Of a stretch of 64,000 nucleotides of DNA, positions 6,090-13,305 are shown piece after piece (the stretch's first letter is position 1; every line of letters starts with the position of its first letter). Under the pieces are notes generated by a model. That model was not told the DNA's origin, did no database searches, and saw only the letters and a program-made list of their open reading frames with translations. Location of the stretch: positions 248,001-312,000 of the forward strand of contig NZ_WJIE01000001.1 of NCBI RefSeq assembly GCF_009649845.1, given 5' to 3'. This DNA comes from Polyangium spumosum (lineage in GTDB: Bacteria > Myxococcota_A > Polyangia > Polyangiales > Polyangiaceae). A program made the position numbers and the translations under genes.

Positions 6090-7427
6090 CTAGAACCGTA
6101 GTCGTTCGATCGTGCGGGTAGACATCTTGCCGGCGACCACGTCCGGATCCCGGAGGAGAGCCTGGTGCAGCGGGATGTTCGTGCGGATGCCGCCGATGAT
6201 GAACTCGTCGAGCGCAGCGCGCATGCGAGCGATCGCTTCCGCGCGCGTGGCGCCGTGCGTGATCACCTTCGCGAGCATGGGGTCGTAGCTGTTCGGCACG
6301 CGGAAGCCGCCGTAGACGCCCGAGTCGACGCGCACGCCGCCGCCGCCGGGCGGCAGGTACTCGGTGATGAGGCCGGGCCAGGGGACGAACGTGCGCGGAT
6401 CTTCCGCGTTGATCCGGCATTCCATGGCGTGCCCGCGCAGGCCGAGCGCGCGCCCGCTCGGGAGCGTGAGCGCCTCCCCCGCGGCGGCGCGGATCTGGTT
6501 CTCCACGAGATCGATGCCCGTCACCATCTCCGTGACCGGATGCTCGACCTGCACGCGGGTGTTCATCTCCATGAAGTAGAGATGGCCCTGCTCATCCATC
6601 AGGAACTCGAGCGTCCCGAGCGAGGTGTAACCCGTCTCGACGAGCGCGCGGGTGCAGGCCGCGGAGAGCTCGGCGCGTTTGTCCGGGGTCATGGCCGGGC
6701 TCGGCGCCTCCTCGATGACCTTCTGGTGCCGCCGCTGCAGGGAGCACTCGCGCTCGCCGAACGTGAAGATGTGGCCGTGGTTGTCGCCGAGCACCTGCAG
6801 CTCGATGTGCCGCGGCTCCTCGACGAACTTCTCGAGGTAGACGTCCGGGTTCTTGAAGCCCGCCTGCGCCTCGCTCGTCGCCGTCTCGAACGCGCGCCGG
6901 ATCTCGCTGTCGTCACGCACGACCCGCATGCCGCGACCGCCGCCGCCGCCCGCGGCCTTGAGGATCACGGGGTAGCCGATCTGCGCGGCCTGCACCGCGG
7001 CGTCCTCGGCGTCACGCAGCACGGTCGTGCCCGGGAGGAGCGGCAGGCCGAACCGCTTCGCAGCTTCCCGCGCGCGGACCTTGTCGCCCCAGAGGCGCAT
7101 CGCCGCGGGCGTGGGGCCGATGAAGGTCAGGCCGCAGCGCCGGCAGAGCTCGGCGAACTCGGCGTTCTCCGAGAGGAACCCGTAGCCCGGGTGGACCGCC
7201 TCGGCGCCCGTGATCTCGGCCGCGGCGATGATCTGCGGGATGTTGAGGTAGCTGCGCCGCGGATCGGCCGGACCCACGCACACGGCCTCGTCGGCGAAGC
7301 GCACGTGCGGCGCGCTCGCGTCGACGTCCGAGTGGATGGCAACCGTACGGATGCCGAGGGTGCGGCACGCCCGCACGACGCGCATCGCGATCTCGCCGCG
7401 GTTGGCGATGAGGATCTTGCCGAACAA
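6090..7427 (-). CDS. accC: Acetyl-CoA carboxylase, biotin carboxylase subunit
   Basis: Carboxylates biotin on AccB with ATP and bicarbonate, the first half of the reaction that makes malonyl-CoA. The 445-residue protein starts with the family-typical FGKILIANRGEIAMRV, has the ATP-grasp glycine loop KAAGGGGGRGM near 160-170, the HIELQVLGD stretch, and the ExNxRxQVEHPVTE active-site segment near 287-300. Length is normal. The start is a TTG at 7427, preceded by GAGGT eight bases upstream; it lies 27 bases after the accB stop, so accB and accC are cotranscribed. Confidence 0.97.
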   Translation of the reverse strand: MFGKILIANRGEIAMRVVRACRTLGIRTVAIHSDVDASAPHVRFADEAVCVGPADPRRSYLNIPQIIAAAEITGAEAVHPGYGFLSENAEFAELCRRCGLTFIGPTPAAMRLWGDKVRAREAAKRFGLPLLPGTTVLRDAEDAAVQAAQIGYPVILKAAGGGGGRGMRVVRDDSEIRRAFETATSEAQAGFKNPDVYLEKFVEEPRHIELQVLGDNHGHIFTFGERECSLQRRHQKVIEEAPSPAMTPDKRAELSAACTRALVETGYTSLGTLEFLMDEQGHLYFMEMNTRVQVEHPVTEMVTGIDLVENQIRAAAGEALTLPSGRALGLRGHAMECRINAEDPRTFVPWPGLITEYLPPGGGGVRVDSGVYGGFRVPNSYDPMLAKVITHGATRAEAIARMRAALDEFIIGGIRTNIPLHQALLRDPDVVAGKMSTRTIERLRF

Positions 7428-7454: not shown

Positions 7455-7910
<456 letters not shown>

Positions 7911-8020
7911 GCCGATCCCGTTCCCGCGCATGAGGCGGCCCTTCGTCCGAGAAGCAGCCGCCCGAGCCGGGGTGTTTTCTAGCGGAAGACCGCCAAAAAG
8001 GAAGGAGATTCGAGGGCAAG

Positions 8021-8042
8021 GGACGTCACGGGCGTGACGTCC
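8021..8042. promoter_or_regulatory. Perfect 10-bp inverted repeat between aroQ and accB
   Basis: GGACGTCACG, two bases, then CGTGACGTCC. It begins five bases beyond the aroQ stop and about 110 bases upstream of accB. The two-base spacer and the lack of a T-run argue against a simple intrinsic terminator. A dimeric regulator operator controlling accBC is possible, but this is inference from symmetry alone. Confidence 0.45.
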
Positions 8043-8046
8043 TACG

Positions 8047-8514
8047 TCAGCGGCCTCGGTGCTGCAGGTGATACACGAGCCCCAGCAAACCGAGGACGTA
8101 CGACGCAGGGCCGAAGCCCGCGACCGTGCCGAGACACGCGCCGGCCGTGATCGAGTGGTGACGGAATGGCTCGCGCGCCGCGGTGTTCGTGATGTGCACC
8201 TCGACCACGGGTAGGCCACTCGCGCGGATGGCGTCGTGCAGCACGACCGAGGTGTGGGTGAGGCCGGCCCCGTTCATGACGATGCCGTCGAAGCCCTCGT
8301 CTGCGGCGCGGCCGATCGCGGTCACGAGCTCGCCTTCGTGGTTCGACTGAAGGAAGGCGACGTCGACACCCTCGCTCCGCGCGACCTCCTCGACGGCTTT
8401 GTGGATGTCGTCGAGGGTGGTCGTTCCGTAGATGGAAGGCTCGCGCTTGCCGAGCCGGTCGAGGTTCGGCCCCGAGACCACGAGGACCCGCTTGCGCGCT
8501 TCGCCGGCGCTCAC
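8047..8514 (-). CDS. aroQ: Type II 3-dehydroquinate dehydratase
   Basis: Third step of the shikimate pathway: trans-dehydration of 3-dehydroquinate. The 155-residue protein has the signature [21 protein letters not shown] near the start (the family Tyr follows at the SIYG position), QSNHEGEL near 60, [16 protein letters not shown] near 85 and [18 protein letters not shown] near 110, so all known active-site segments are present. I chose the GTG at 8514, because it overlaps the TGA of the upstream roadblock gene in a GTGA junction and gives the normal family length. This implies translational coupling to that gene. Confidence 0.95.
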
Positions 8515-8867
8515 ATGTCCTTGAGCAGCACGGGCGCCTTGACGCGGAGCATGTACCTCGCTTTGCCGACGTTGCCGTCCGGCCGCACGGAGACCGCGAC
8601 GAAGTGCCGCTCGTTCAGCACGCGGATCACCGTCGTGACCTTCGCCGCCTGGATCGCGATCTCGGCGGTGTCGCCGGCCTCGAGCATCTGGGCCGCGCGC
8701 TGGATCGACTTGATGACGACGCTGAACTCCGCGCCGATCGTGTTGATGTCGAAGGGGGCGTCGGGCTTCGAGTAGCTGTCGACCGGGATGCCCTCGAAAT
8801 CCATGAGGAGGCTGGCGATGCCACCCTCGGTGCCTTCGACGACCTCCTTGAGGACGCTCTGGAACAT
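8511..8867 (-). CDS. Roadblock/LC7-domain protein (MglB-like)
   Basis: A 118-residue single-domain protein beginning MFQSVLKEVVEGTEGGIASLLMDFEGIPVDSYSKP. This pattern of an amphipathic helix followed by a strand with a GIPVDS turn, and the later AEFSVVIKSIQRAAQMLEAGD helix, matches roadblock/LC7 proteins such as MglB, the GTPase-activating partner of the polarity GTPase MglA. No MglA-type GTPase lies nearby, so the partner is unknown. It is the first gene of the run that continues through aroQ, accB and accC, with a four-base overlap into aroQ. Confidence 0.82.
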   Translation of the reverse strand: MFQSVLKEVVEGTEGGIASLLMDFEGIPVDSYSKPDAPFDINTIGAEFSVVIKSIQRAAQMLEAGDTAEIAIQAAKVTTVIRVLNERHFVAVSVRPDGNVGKARYMLRVKAPVLLKDM

Positions 8868-9245
8868 GGGCTGAAACCTTAGCGAAACCAGAGGCGGACG
8901 GGAAAAAGAAAGGGGAGGTTCGTTCGAAGACCCGCGGATTTGCGGTGAGCCCCCCCCGGCCCCCCGTCCGTCCGGCCGCTCTTTTCGTCTTCCGGTCGTC
9001 TCTGGAGTCTGGGGGGAGCCACTTTTGCCTCTTGCATCCCGATGCCAACCGGGCCATTCCCGCACCTACGGGCCCGCCCCAACCGGCGCTTGACCCTCGT
9101 CCCGCCGAGCGGCTAACGTGCGTCGCGGCTACGTGCCCATCGCGCCCTTGCGATGGCACCTGGTTTGTCCACACGTCTCCGAACGACCGAACGAGAAGGA
9201 CGGCCCAAAGAAATGCGCGCACGAGCCGGGGATCCCCCCCGCACG
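8868..9245. other. Divergent intergenic region; weak promoter candidate
   Basis: 378 bases without a recognisable gene between the minus-strand roadblock gene and the plus-strand aconitase-like gene. It should hold both promoters. The only site I can point to is TTGACC at 9090-9095 with TAACGT 18 bases later, reading plus, about 125 bases before the chosen start at 9246. No strong hairpin or repeat was seen. In-frame start alternatives for the downstream gene lie at 9153 and 9213. Confidence 0.3.
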
Positions 9246-11066
9246 ATGCCCCAGAAGATCCTCGCGGGACGCGCCGCCGATCCGCAGCTCCGAGGCGATC
9301 TGGTCCAGGTCAAGGTCGACCAGATCATCCTCTCGCGATCGCCCGGCAGGGCCCTCGGCGAGGCGCTCTCGGCTGGGATGAAGAAGACCCCGGTCGAGAT
9401 GGCCGTGGCCTACGACGGTACGTGCGTGACCGACGCGCGCGCGCTCGCCGACGTGGCCGCGGGCGCGCCTCAGGCCGTCTCGCCGGAGTTCCCCGCGTAC
9501 AACGTGCCCATCGCGCGCGGCGGCATCGGCTTCCCCGCGCCCGTGCACCTCGAGCGCTTCGCCGCGCCGGCGAGGCTCGCGCTCACGGACGACGCGCGCC
9601 TCGCGCCGGTCGGCGGGGTCGGGATGCTGACGCTCGTGGTCTCGCCGAGCCAGCTCGGTCAGGCCCTCGCGACCGGCTCGACCTGGGTGCGCCCGCCGCG
9701 CAGCGTGCAGATCCACCTCTCGGGCCGCGTGCGCCCGTTCGTCTGCGCGCGCGACGTCGCGCTCGAGCTCTTGCGCCGGGGCATCGACGAGGTCGTGCGG
9801 CGCATCGAGTCGGAGCACCACGCGCCGGTCGTGCTGGAGTTCGCGGGCCCGAGCGCGCGGCTGCTCTCGGTCGCGGAGCGCGCGGTGCTCTGCGGCATCG
9901 CGCCGCAGGTCGGCGCGGCTGCGGCCCTGTTCGTGAGTGACGAGAAGACCGAGGTCTTCCTGCGGGATCAGCGCCGCTCCAAGGCGCACCGCGCCCTCGT
10001 CCCGGATCCGGGCGCGCCGTGCGAGGAGGTCGTCTCCATCGATCTCAGCACGGTCGATCCGCTGCTCATGGACGAGGCGGGCGTCGTGCGTCCCGTGCGG
10101 GATCTCGCGGGCAAACCCGTGGGTCAGGTCGTGCTCGGCGGCGACTCGGGCGTGACCCTGCGCGACATGCTCGCGGCTGCGATGCTGCTCAAGTCGAAGC
10201 GCGTCCCGTCGCGCCTCGACCTGCTCGTGGCGCCGCCTTCGCGGCAGGTGCTCGAGGTCCTCGCGCAGTCGGGCGCGCTCGTGGATCTCGTGGCCACGGG
10301 GGCTCGTATCATCGAGCCTGATCGGCGCGTCACGACGTGTGAGCTTTATCCGCCGCCCGCGGGGACGATCTCGCTGCGCACGGCGGAGCCGGCTCCGCGT
10401 GTGCCGGGTGTGCCTTCGTTCGTCGTGGCCTCGGCCGAGACGCTCGCGTATGCGGTGGCCACGGGGACCGTGGGGGATCCGCGATCGTTCAAGCGCCCGG
10501 TGCGCGTGACCGTGCCGCGCGCGTTGCCCACGGACGACGTGCTCGTGCTCCGCGACAAGAAGGGCGAGGGCGCGGCGGCGGGCAAGTCGCCTGCGTTGCC
10601 GCCGGCTGCGTCGTGGAAGGGGCCGCTCGTCCTCGATCTGGTCGAGGGTGCGTCGCGCTCGGGCTCCAACGGCAAAGTCGCGGAGGTCTCTCCTGGGGGT
10701 GCGCCCGTCGCGGGTGGCGTCGTGGTCGTGCTGCGCTCGCTCGACGAGGTGCGGGCCGTCGTGGAAAAGACGATCGACCTGCCTTCGCTCCGCGCCGTCG
10801 TCGCTCCCTTCGTGCCGAGCACTGCGGTCGCCGCGCTCGCGAGTGAAGGCATCGCGACGTTCGAGGTGCCGCCAGCTTCGCTCGAGGGCTTGAAGGGACA
10901 AAAAAGCCTCTCCTTGCCTGAGCCTGCGGCCTGGGGTGACAAGGTCGGCGTGATCGTTGGAGAACAAACGATCGAGCTGACCTGGCTCGCGCTCGGCGCC
11001 GAGCGGACGTGGACGCACGCGGGCACCTCACGCTCGCCTGGCTCTTCCAAGGCCTCCAAATCCTGA
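9246..11066 (+). CDS. Aconitase-family protein lacking the iron-sulphur ligands (probable pseudoenzyme)
   Basis: A 606-residue protein whose whole length follows the aconitase/isopropylmalate dehydratase plan: KILAG near the N-terminus, VKVD, GVGMLTLVV...ALATGSTW (residues ~120-155), a VRPFVCARDV stretch, VLEFAGPSARLLSVAERAVLCGIAPQVGA (~197-225), DLSTVDPLL, then GGDSGVTLRDMLAAA (298-312) and a swivel-domain-like tail. In active family members that last site reads GSCTNGR, with the Cys binding the [4Fe-4S] cluster. Here the Cys is Asp300 and the Asn and Arg are Gly and Thr. The downstream CxxC is also absent, as is the usual GTDSHT. Dehydratase activity is therefore unlikely. I chose ATG 9246 because the family begins near the KILA segment. 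The ORF is intact, so a retained non-catalytic role is probable. Confidence 0.72.
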   Translation: MPQKILAGRAADPQLRGDLVQVKVDQIILSRSPGRALGEALSAGMKKTPVEMAVAYDGTCVTDARALADVAAGAPQAVSPEFPAYNVPIARGGIGFPAPVHLERFAAPARLALTDDARLAPVGGVGMLTLVVSPSQLGQALATGSTWVRPPRSVQIHLSGRVRPFVCARDVALELLRRGIDEVVRRIESEHHAPVVLEFAGPSARLLSVAERAVLCGIAPQVGAAAALFVSDEKTEVFLRDQRRSKAHRALVPDPGAPCEEVVSIDLSTVDPLLMDEAGVVRPVRDLAGKPVGQVVLGGDSGVTLRDMLAAAMLLKSKRVPSRLDLLVAPPSRQVLEVLAQSGALVDLVATGARIIEPDRRVTTCELYPPPAGTISLRTAEPAPRVPGVPSFVVASAETLAYAVATGTVGDPRSFKRPVRVTVPRALPTDDVLVLRDKKGEGAAAGKSPALPPAASWKGPLVLDLVEGASRSGSNGKVAEVSPGGAPVAGGVVVVLRSLDEVRAVVEKTIDLPSLRAVVAPFVPSTAVAALASEGIATFEVPPASLEGLKGQKSLSLPEPAAWGDKVGVIVGEQTIELTWLALGAERTWTHAGTSRSPGSSKASKS

Positions 11067-11078
11067 TCGCTCCCCGCT

Positions 11079-11185
11079 GGATGAACTGCGCGCTGCGCAG
11101 TTCATCCACCATCGGTCCAGGCCGTGCCTGGTCCGGGGTGGAGGGGGCGGACAGCCCCCTCCTGGGGTCCGGGGTGAAACCCCGG
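11079..11185. terminator. Three successive hairpins between convergent genes
   Basis: Perfect stems at 11079-11091/11095-11107 (13 bp, 3-base loop, arm GGATGAACTGCGC), 11140-11148/11154-11162 (9 bp) and 11169-11175/11179-11185 (7 bp). They fill the 130 bases between two convergent genes and probably stop transcription from both sides. No T-run follows, so they may instead be a copy of a dispersed palindromic element. Confidence 0.6.
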
Positions 11186-11196
11186 CGGCGCTCCGC

Positions 11197-13305
11197 TCAC
11201 GGACTCGACAGCGGCTTCTCCAGCTTGATCGAGGCGAGGATGTCGCGCAGGCGCACGGACTGCTCGTTCACCTCGATCTCGAGGATCGTCAGGCGCTTCG
11301 TGATCTCGCCGAGGCGGGACGAGGCCTTGCCGAGACGCTCCGTGAAGTCCTGACGCATCTTCTCGGTGTTCTGCCGCGACACCGTGTCGCGCGGGTCGTC
11401 CTTGATCTTCTCGATCGCCTTGAGGTTTCGCCGGACTTGCTCGCTCTCGCGCTCGAGCGTCGCCTGCTCCGACTGGAGCTTGTTCCGCTCGTCGAGCGCC
11501 GTGCGCAGGCGCCCGCGCGCGTCCCACGCCTTCTTCAGCTCTGCCACCACGAGTTTGTCGGCGCGCGCGTCGTTCATGTAGGCCTTCACCGCGTCGTCTG
11601 CGAGCGGCGAGAGCGCGTCGATCTGGCGCGTGAAGCTGCGGCGCTCCTCCACGTCGAGCACGTTCGTCGCGCGCTTCGGCGTCGTCTGCGGGACGAGCGC
11701 GCTGCCCGTGCCCACGTTGTCCTCGGTGCCTTTGGGCGGGTTTTCGAGCCGCGTGCCGGGGATGCGCGAGTGCTTGACGAGTGTCTTTGCGTCGAAGTCC
11801 GTGCCGTTCTTGATCGTGTACTTCGTGTGGTAGACCCAGTCGCGCTCGATGTAGAGCTGGCCGCCGTCGATCTTCGCGAGGCGCGCGCTGAGCTCGTCCT
11901 CCTTGCGGTCCGTGGTCACGGCGAGGCCTCGCTCGAGGGCGAAGGGCACCGTGGCGACGGCGCCGGGTGGCAGCGGATCGACCATGCCTTGCCCGAGGAA
12001 GGCGCCGTCGTCGAAGACCGCGATCGGGCCTTTTTCGAGCAGGCCCTTCGTGTTGTTGGTGAAGCGCGCGACGCGGAACGGATGCGAGAACGAGTCACGC
12101 ACGCCGCCGTCCGGCGAGAAGAGGAAGATCGCCTCGCCGGGCACGCGTTGCGCGAGCAGGAGGACCATCGTCGCGCTCTTGTTCGGGATGTCGACGGGGA
12201 AGGGGAGATCGTAACGCGTGGTGCCGCCTTCCACCGCGACGGCCGCCAGCGCGTTCACGTTGCGCGGGTTCGACGGTGTCACCGGGCGCGGCATCTCCGT
12301 CGGATACGGCGCGGGCGCGGCGGAGCCGGCTGGAACTCCGCCGCCGTAGTTCGCGCCCATGCGGCCCTTCTTCGCGGGCGCCGAGCGCGTCGCCGTCGAT
12401 CGTGTCGCGCCCGTCGTCGGCGCGCGGTCGTACTCCGCGAAGGCCTCGTCCTTCGCGGACTCGGCCTCCGCGAGCAGATCATCGAGGCGCTCGCCGCCCT
12501 CTTCCTGCGGCGCGGCCATCGGAGGCGGCGGCGGGGCCGCCGGCGCCATCGTGGGCAGGCTCGTCTCGCCGACGGGCACCGACGCGATCACCTCGCCTTG
12601 ATCCGTCACCACCGGGCGCGGCGGCACGACGGGTTTGTCCAGGGTCGCCTGGAACGCGAGCGGCGCGCCTGCGACGAGCGAGAGCCGCACGCCGTTCCAG
12701 TCCTCGCCGGACTGGTTCTGCACGATGCCCCAGGCCTGCAGATCCGCCTTCGTTTCGCCGGCGCTGCCGGCCTTCGCGATCACCAGGCGGTACGAGGGCC
12801 GCCAGACCGGCGTCTCCGCGACGTATCCGACCACGAGATCGTGCTCCTCGCCGTCGAGCGTGAGCCGCACCGTCTCGCGATCGTCTGCCTTCTTCTTTTT
12901 CTTCTTCGGCGGAGGTGGCGGCATCGGCATGCCGATCCGGTGCTCGGCGATGGGCTCGGCCTCGCCGTCCTCGCCGTCCTCTTCGTCGTCTTCGGCGTCC
13001 TTGTCCTTGTCCAGCTCGACCGGGAACGACGCGCTGCGCACGCTGCTCCCGCCTTGCTCCATCACCGCGAGCGTGGCGAGGAAGTCGCCGATGCGCTCCG
13101 TGCGGACCTTGAACGCGACCTCGGGCTCGTCCACGTGCCCTGCGCGCTCGTAGTAGCCGACGCCGTTGCGGTAGATGATCACGCGGCGGAGCGCGAGTCC
13201 GCTCGCGACGTCCGGCCCACGCGCGCAACCCGCGAGGGGGAGCGCCGAGGTCAGAAGGAGAAGTCCACCCACCGTGCCCAGTCGAAAGCGAGAAAAGCGG
13301 CTCAT
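11197..13305 (-). CDS. DUF4139-type lipoprotein (mucoidy-inhibitor MuiA-like)
   Basis: A 702-residue envelope protein. It starts MSRFSRFRLG, then a hydrophobic segment ending in the lipobox LPLAGC, so it is probably a lipoprotein. The body has the pattern of DUF4139/DUF4140 proteins: an N-terminal strand-rich part with ALRRVIIYRNGVGYYER, a middle VVGYVAETPVWRPSYRLVI segment, and a C-terminal coiled coil (residues ~600-700, EQATLERESEQVRRNLKAIEK). Low-complexity inserts include a Lys run (PPPKKKKKK near 150) and Ala/Pro-rich stretches. The biochemical role of this family is not established. Start ATG 13305, divergent from the sulfatase gene 94 bases away. Confidence 0.75.
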   Translation of the reverse strand: MSRFSRFRLGTVGGLLLLTSALPLAGCARGPDVASGLALRRVIIYRNGVGYYERAGHVDEPEVAFKVRTERIGDFLATLAVMEQGGSSVRSASFPVELDKDKDAEDDEEDGEDGEAEPIAEHRIGMPMPPPPPKKKKKKADDRETVRLTLDGEEHDLVVGYVAETPVWRPSYRLVIAKAGSAGETKADLQAWGIVQNQSGEDWNGVRLSLVAGAPLAFQATLDKPVVPPRPVVTDQGEVIASVPVGETSLPTMAPAAPPPPPMAAPQEEGGERLDDLLAEAESAKDEAFAEYDRAPTTGATRSTATRSAPAKKGRMGANYGGGVPAGSAAPAPYPTEMPRPVTPSNPRNVNALAAVAVEGGTTRYDLPFPVDIPNKSATMVLLLAQRVPGEAIFLFSPDGGVRDSFSHPFRVARFTNNTKGLLEKGPIAVFDDGAFLGQGMVDPLPPGAVATVPFALERGLAVTTDRKEDELSARLAKIDGGQLYIERDWVYHTKYTIKNGTDFDAKTLVKHSRIPGTRLENPPKGTEDNVGTGSALVPQTTPKRATNVLDVEERRSFTRQIDALSPLADDAVKAYMNDARADKLVVAELKKAWDARGRLRTALDERNKLQSEQATLERESEQVRRNLKAIEKIKDDPRDTVSRQNTEKMRQDFTERLGKASSRLGEITKRLTILEIEVNEQSVRLRDILASIKLEKPLSSP

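Follow-up and report, generated by a model that had tools for sequence, protein, structure and literature searches.

The soil myxobacterium Polyangium spumosum encodes an aconitase look-alike that retains the aconitase fold, has lost the ligands of the iron-sulfur cluster together with the catalytic motifs, and shows roughly the same degree of conservation as the AcnA encoded alongside it. The gene is located on the forward strand at positions 9213..11066 of the window, i.e. the stretch of 64,000 nucleotides of the 10.76 Mb genome that was analysed, and comprises 617 codons followed by a stop codon. A sequence-only reading had described it as a full-length aconitase homologue without cluster or active-site residues; this observation was confirmed, and the case for it is now stronger than that reading had made it. 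The explanation favoured here, with a probability of roughly 55%, is that the protein is a repurposed aconitase-fold pseudoenzyme that binds or scaffolds without catalysing a reaction, with RNA or a ribonucleoprotein as the first and an acidic protein as the second putative partner.

The reading frame had been given as 9246-11066, and on re-examination the open frame proved to be real. The start codon most likely lies 33 bases further upstream at 9213, because the residues MRARAGDPPRT (9213..9245, forward strand) directly precede the methionine chosen before and because the pattern of this N-terminal tail is present in 51 of 52 aligned relatives. The tail has no counterpart in four aligned short aconitases. 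In relatives of the same genus (Polyangium or very near), the look-alike is 95-96% identical to the window protein. In one member (L056:7959-9683) a stretch including the GGD loop is missing from an otherwise open frame, possibly due to an assembly error.

The homology to aconitases was borne out by profile searches. The window protein matched PF00330 with an E-value of 1.2e-26 and a score of 94.2 bits (Pfam cut-off 28.7), no other Pfam family was matched at E-values up to 1, and no better match to another family was found in Pfam and NCBIfam. All 27 scanned relatives matched PF00330 at E-values up to 0.01, and all 27 also matched the models of the short monomeric aconitases (NF005558/TIGR01342). 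The latter are the best NCBIfam models for the window protein, which reaches about 180 bits and thus less than one third of the curated cut-offs of 612 and 719. Since the PF00330 cut-off is passed, annotators should be warned that the look-alike may be misnamed an aconitase. In a phmmer search against PDB sequences, residues 4-379 were aligned to the large subunit of isopropylmalate isomerase (E 1.1e-18), and a profile built from the look-alike family reaches pig aconitase.

Structure prediction was performed with AlphaFold, and the best model of the full protein has a mean pLDDT of 77.3 and a pTM of 0.81. Upon structural comparison (Foldseek was also run), this model was matched to pig aconitase 1b0j with a Z-score of 27.9 over 568 residues at 3.7 Å and to a LeuC-type large subunit with a Z-score of 32.9, while its residues 466-606 were matched to the LeuD small subunit with a Z-score of 10.2. 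The five models are spread from pLDDT 77.3 down to 46.8, and a job with the core only gave a poor model (pLDDT 55.9, pTM 0.55). Due to the fact that the best of five models was used and the others were weaker, the prediction backs the overall fold and not its finer features. The window protein has the aconitase fold, and the predicted match to all four domains rests on a fragile model.

For the analysis of motifs, 52 distinct relatives (window copy included) and six comparators from the aconitase family were aligned in 58 rows after near-identical and duplicate loci had been removed. The reference residues are those of pig aconitase (D165-S166-H167, Cys358, Cys421/Cys424), for some residues of which the roles are given in PMC8184944. 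At the position of GSCTN the window protein reads GGDSG (10137..10151, forward strand), so that the cluster ligand Cys358 is replaced by Asp300; aspartate is found here in 50 of the 52 sequences, one having a gap and one a glycine. The CxxC motif with Cys421/Cys424 is replaced by EPDRRVTT (10314..10337, forward strand), and cysteine occurs at the corresponding positions 360 and 363 in none of the 52. The loss of both motifs had thus been called correctly, and not a single sequence has a cysteine at any of the three cluster positions of catalytic aconitases and isopropylmalate isomerases. The GSDSHT position, containing D165-S166-H167 in pig aconitase, was likewise reported as lost; it reads LTDDAR (9582..9599, forward strand) in the window protein, with Arg118 in place of the histidine, and TD(D/E)xR across the family, with one acid retained and arginine for histidine in 51/52. 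Additionally, RNF.GR and GSSREH are absent from the look-alike in the alignment against short aconitases of other myxobacteria, so that of the D-S-H, RNF.GR and GSSREH elements of catalytic family members it has none complete. The residue corresponding to Asp165 is still acidic, and that corresponding to Glu262 (residue 198) is still glutamate in 52/52. As controls, eight of eight short aconitases carry both GSDSHT and GSSREH, and six of them the RNF.GR pattern. Judged from these lost residues, the look-alike is very likely not an aconitase-type hydratase. As a separate observation, two short aconitases from other genomes of the order (L071:2285-4321 and L072:6640-8610) read GSSAN for GSCTN, with serine replacing the first cluster cysteine, and keep CxxC, GSDSHT and GSSREH.

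The assumption that the frame is maintained by selection was well supported by dN/dS values calculated according to Nei-Gojobori for 11 hand-chosen pairs of closest relatives. The values were 0.017-0.086 for the core (residues 1-445 of 617) and 0.043-0.193 for the whole protein, and 82 positions within residues 1-436 are invariant among the 52 members. AcnA from the same genomes was used as matched control; 20 sequences were fetched and 19 were comparable, genome G018 being left out as its look-alike has a deletion. With respect to similarity to the window copy, the look-alike core scored higher than AcnA in 14 of the 19 genomes, equal in two and lower in three (G024, G029, G056). The AcnA motifs GTDSHT, TSCTN and GCTTC are intact in 21/21 genomes, window genome included, and therefore a motif-intact AcnA coexists with the look-alike in these genomes. 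The look-alike is about as conserved as AcnA, that is, like a real enzyme despite its lost residues, and therefore it probably has some binding job in the cell. Of the earlier proposal of a regulatory or structural pseudoenzyme, the part that stands is a pseudoenzyme under selection.

The gene was found in 94 of 108 Polyangiaceae genomes (E 1e-60) and in 54 of the 61 with a completeness of 90% or more and a contamination of 5% or less. The 14 genomes without a match, some of which are incomplete, indicate that the look-alike is not needed throughout the lineage. At the same threshold, 98 of 183 genomes of the order carry it, the additional four all belonging to a second family (f8). There is one copy per genome, listed in G018 and G422 as two pieces of one gene. 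A sample of 377 genomes from the phylum yielded 37 that reached an E-value of 1e-46, namely 31 Polyangiaceae, two of family f8 and four others; these four are short aconitases with GSDSHT, GSCTN, CxxC and GSSREH in 4/4 and the RNF.GR pattern in 2/4. Beyond the phylum, a single protein was used in one pattern scan, which reaches close relatives only. The look-alikes form one clade: in a tree of 28 rows, a branch of length 2.4 and support 100/100 sets 19 of them apart. Three f8 rows are nested among the Polyangiaceae rows, which allows for a transfer into f8; for this tree the tool warns of long branches.

In order to locate the conservation without bias, mean entropy was scanned in sliding windows of 11 residues. 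The most conserved stretches of the look-alike core are LRDQRRSKAHR with 0.03 bits (9960..9992, forward strand; 52 sequences), the N-terminal tail MRARAGDPPRT with 0.07 bits (52 sequences) and GDPRSFKRPVR with 0.15 bits, followed at 0.28 bits by VHLERFAAPAR, ALVDLVATGAR and EFAGPSARLLS. The top three are all rich in arginine and lysine and are located outside the old active site. In the same scan of AcnA, GYGCTTCIGNS ranked first (0.00), and windows with TSCTN (0.03), RNFEGR (0.05) and GTDSHT (0.15) were among the top six. The loops of the former pocket have a mean entropy of 1.05 bits and the remaining positions of residues 1-437 one of 0.92 bits (p 0.73 in a circular-shift test), so that conservation centred on the pocket was not found, although single loops are well kept.

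The charge of the protein has been reversed. The look-alike core has a median pI of 8.98 (range 7.03-9.98) and a net charge of +4 (n=52), versus a median pI of 5.72 and a net charge of -7 for AcnA (n=21) and a pI of 5.1-5.9 for four short aconitases; for both charge and entropy, the 21 AcnA controls consisted of 20 PF00330 stretches and, for the window genome, the whole 1020-codon frame. It is chiefly this shift from acidic to basic, together with the conserved arginines and lysines, that led us to propose a polyanion as partner. High GC content favours arginine and counts against the charge argument, although the AcnA proteins encoded in these genomes are acidic. The core ends in a conserved basic tail (DPRSFKRPVRVTVPRALPTDDVLVLR; 10476..10553, forward strand). 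When further copies of this tail were searched for in the own genome, all matches apart from the gene itself had E-values above 2.

Downstream of the core lies a degenerate swivel domain with the fold of LeuD or aconitase domain 4 (10608..11045, forward strand). It has lost GSSREH and is poorly conserved, with a mean entropy of 1.97 bits versus 0.87 bits for the core (48 rows reaching the swivel). In eight relatives from six genera (G024, G439, G440, G029, G035, G441, G413, G411) it is absent; these proteins of 434-504 residues end within the basic tail or shortly after it, with a stop codon at or just past PTDDV. G429, in which the frame runs off the contig, was not counted, and in G029 and G411 just 308 and 642 bases remain on the fetched contig. 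Three swivel-less members of genus g20 come from single-contig genomes. The genera g31 and g264 also contain full-length members, which suggests repeated loss of the swivel unless draft assemblies mislead. The swivel domain is dispensable. According to PMC7181819, domain 4 of IRP1 covers the cluster located in the core and matters for RNA binding. The absence of the swivel in eight relatives speaks against the classical reaction as well as against an exact IRP1-type clamp.

The strongest competitor, although unlikely, is a neofunctionalised enzyme, in which the cleft would have been rebuilt with T114, D115, R118, D300, R306, E357, D359 and Y368, perhaps with one divalent metal, for a new reaction. 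Each of these eight cleft residues is conserved in 50-52 of the 52 sequences and the loops TDDPR (0.49 bits) and GGDSG (0.55 bits) are well kept; the conservation of T114, D115, R118, D300, E357 and D359 would also agree with a site rebuilt for catalysis or ligand binding and counts against the favoured explanation. Moreover, the superfamily tolerates changed cluster types and ligands, as described for aconitase X in PMC8184944. However, taken together, the cleft shows no more conservation than other parts of the protein, its loops around Q72 (1.32 bits), D100/H101 (1.22 bits) and R447/R452 (1.77 bits) are variable, GSSREH and RNF.GR are gone, and eight members have dispensed with the domain that closes the cleft.

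Conserved neighbours had been suggested as a further check, and their analysis gave a divided answer. The look-alike gene is arranged head-to-head with a gene on the reverse strand (8511..8867) for an MglC homologue of 118 aa, with a gap of 345 bp to the start at 9213. Pfam gave no match for this homologue at E 0.01, but it matches Myxococcus MglC (PDB 7ct3), a cell-polarity protein, with an E-value of 3e-21. The head-to-head arrangement holds in 34/34 loci with a called mglC, with gaps of 118-603 bp; eight of 42 loci are without an mglC call, three of them from f8. By eye, the link was seen in 31 of 32 gene-carrying genomes of the family, the remaining one being split between contigs. Further reverse-strand genes in the window encode an accC-like biotin carboxylase (6090..7427) and a MeaB-like GTPase (1154-2170), and an open frame with an accB-like biotinyl carrier domain lies at 7455..8219 on the same strand. 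Beyond mglC, the called clusters comprise type II dehydroquinase in 20, the biotin carrier in 29 and biotin carboxylase in 30 of the 42 loci.

In family f8 (L064, L073, L132, L074) the look-alike gene and mglC are unlinked. Here, genes for an ABC-F-like ATPase and a glutaredoxin-domain protein adjoin the look-alike gene in three of four loci, the fourth being near a contig end, and rpsB-tsf-pyrB lies beside it in three of the four loci (the names rpsB and pyrB were given by eye). The inconstant neighbourhood provides leads towards polarity, carboxylation and translation, but no function was assigned from it; a function derived from the mglC linkage was set aside as this linkage is constant in Polyangiaceae yet fails in f8. 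A search of positions 8400-11300 against Rfam gave no family at threshold.

Distinctly unlikely in the light of these data is an allosteric or scaffolding partner of a complex, whether with AcnA, a carboxylase, a methylmalonyl-CoA enzyme or the neighbouring MglC polarity module. The invariable head-to-head position of mglC at called loci would agree with such a role, as would the presence of MeaB-cluster genes at 15, methylmalonyl-CoA mutase-cluster genes at 10 and glyoxalase-family genes at eight of the 42 loci, and AcnA is encoded in the same genome. On the other hand, 57 of 59 relatives carry an mglC-like gene whether or not they have the look-alike, including four of five genomes of the family that lack a look-alike match, it is unlinked in f8, and the neighbours other than mglC-aroQ-accB-accC differ between clades.

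An Fe-S protein whose cluster is held by shifted cysteines, similar to aconitase X, is very improbable. Cysteines are common elsewhere in the family, i.e. C60 in 48, C167 in 49 and C259 in 45 of the 52 sequences, and aconitase X holds its clusters by differently placed cysteines, as stated in PMC8184944. When cysteines at shifted positions were looked for, no set of three proved to be universal: C60, C167 and C259 occur together in 43/52, two of them in five members, one in three and none in one, and therefore too few members have all three for an obligate cluster. Position 98, which is equivalent to His147 and is cysteine in aconitase X, is A, G, P, S or V in 52/52 and never cysteine. A decaying pseudogene, chance frame or annotation artefact, for which the lost catalytic residues and the poorly conserved swivel might be cited, can practically be discounted given dN/dS values far below 1, the 82 invariant positions and the presence in 94/108 genomes.

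The look-alike is thus likely to be a binding protein, and RNA or a ribonucleoprotein is a first guess at its partner made from charge and motifs. In the repurposing that we favour, the parent would most likely have been a short monomeric aconitase, which would have lost both its [4Fe-4S] cluster and its machinery for the hydratase reaction before the gene became fixed in Polyangiaceae, presumably with no catalysis whatever remaining. The basic segments of domains 1-3, namely the N-terminal tail, the LRDQRRSKAHR loop and the DPRxFKRPVRVTVPRxLPTDDV tail, may form one surface and dock onto a conserved polyanionic partner, and the swivel domain would be a losable remnant. The comparison with RNA-binding aconitases of eukaryotes drawn in the sequence-only reading gains from the charge reversal and the basic, near-invariant motifs, and loses from a swivel that is less conserved and missing in eight relatives. 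IRP-type RNA binding is hinted at indirectly by the basic pI and the basic conserved motifs. A tentative and rather doubtful extension of this reading is that a bacterial counterpart of the IRPs evolved independently, as a cluster-free and iron-insensitive protein present across the lineage, which would bind RNA or the translation apparatus via new basic motifs of domains 1-3 and without need of the swivel.

Several known systems can be compared with the look-alike. Among the papers listed for inactive or pseudoenzyme aconitases, for myxobacterial aconitase and for ybhJ, none describes such a bacterial family in its title or in the opening of its abstract. LeuC keeps its cluster and pairs with LeuD. 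The large subunits LeuC and HacA consist of domains 1-3 only, as do the eight swivel-less relatives, and the window model matches them with Z-scores of 31-33, but the look-alike is without the cluster cysteines. The short monomeric aconitases (NF005558/TIGR01342), the best NCBIfam match, share its domain order with a C-terminal swivel, and differ from it by their score (about 180 bits for the look-alike versus 612/719) and by their cluster cysteines, D-S-H and GSSREH. Aconitase X is likewise a divergent branch of the superfamily with altered cluster ligands, according to PMC8184944, but no such profile was among the Pfam matches at E-values up to 1, the structural Z-score is about 14, and its cysteine at the His147-equivalent position is lacking in the look-alike. 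IRP1 and IRP2 share the aconitase fold with the look-alike, which by its sequence lacks the cluster ligands, and the window model matches 2b3x with a Z-score of 21.9 and the RNA-bound structure 3snp with 17.1. They differ from it in that its swivel is absent in eight relatives and its sequence is nearer to the short bacterial aconitases than to the AcnA/IRP1-type models. IRPs bind RNA without their cluster, and aconitase is the textbook example of an enzyme with a second role in RNA binding, which in IRP1 depends on one protein that gains and loses its cluster. The look-alike thereby provides a test case for non-catalytic uses of the aconitase fold: in addition to a normal AcnA, this bacterial lineage retains a distinct form that is permanently without a cluster, and conserves it about as strongly.
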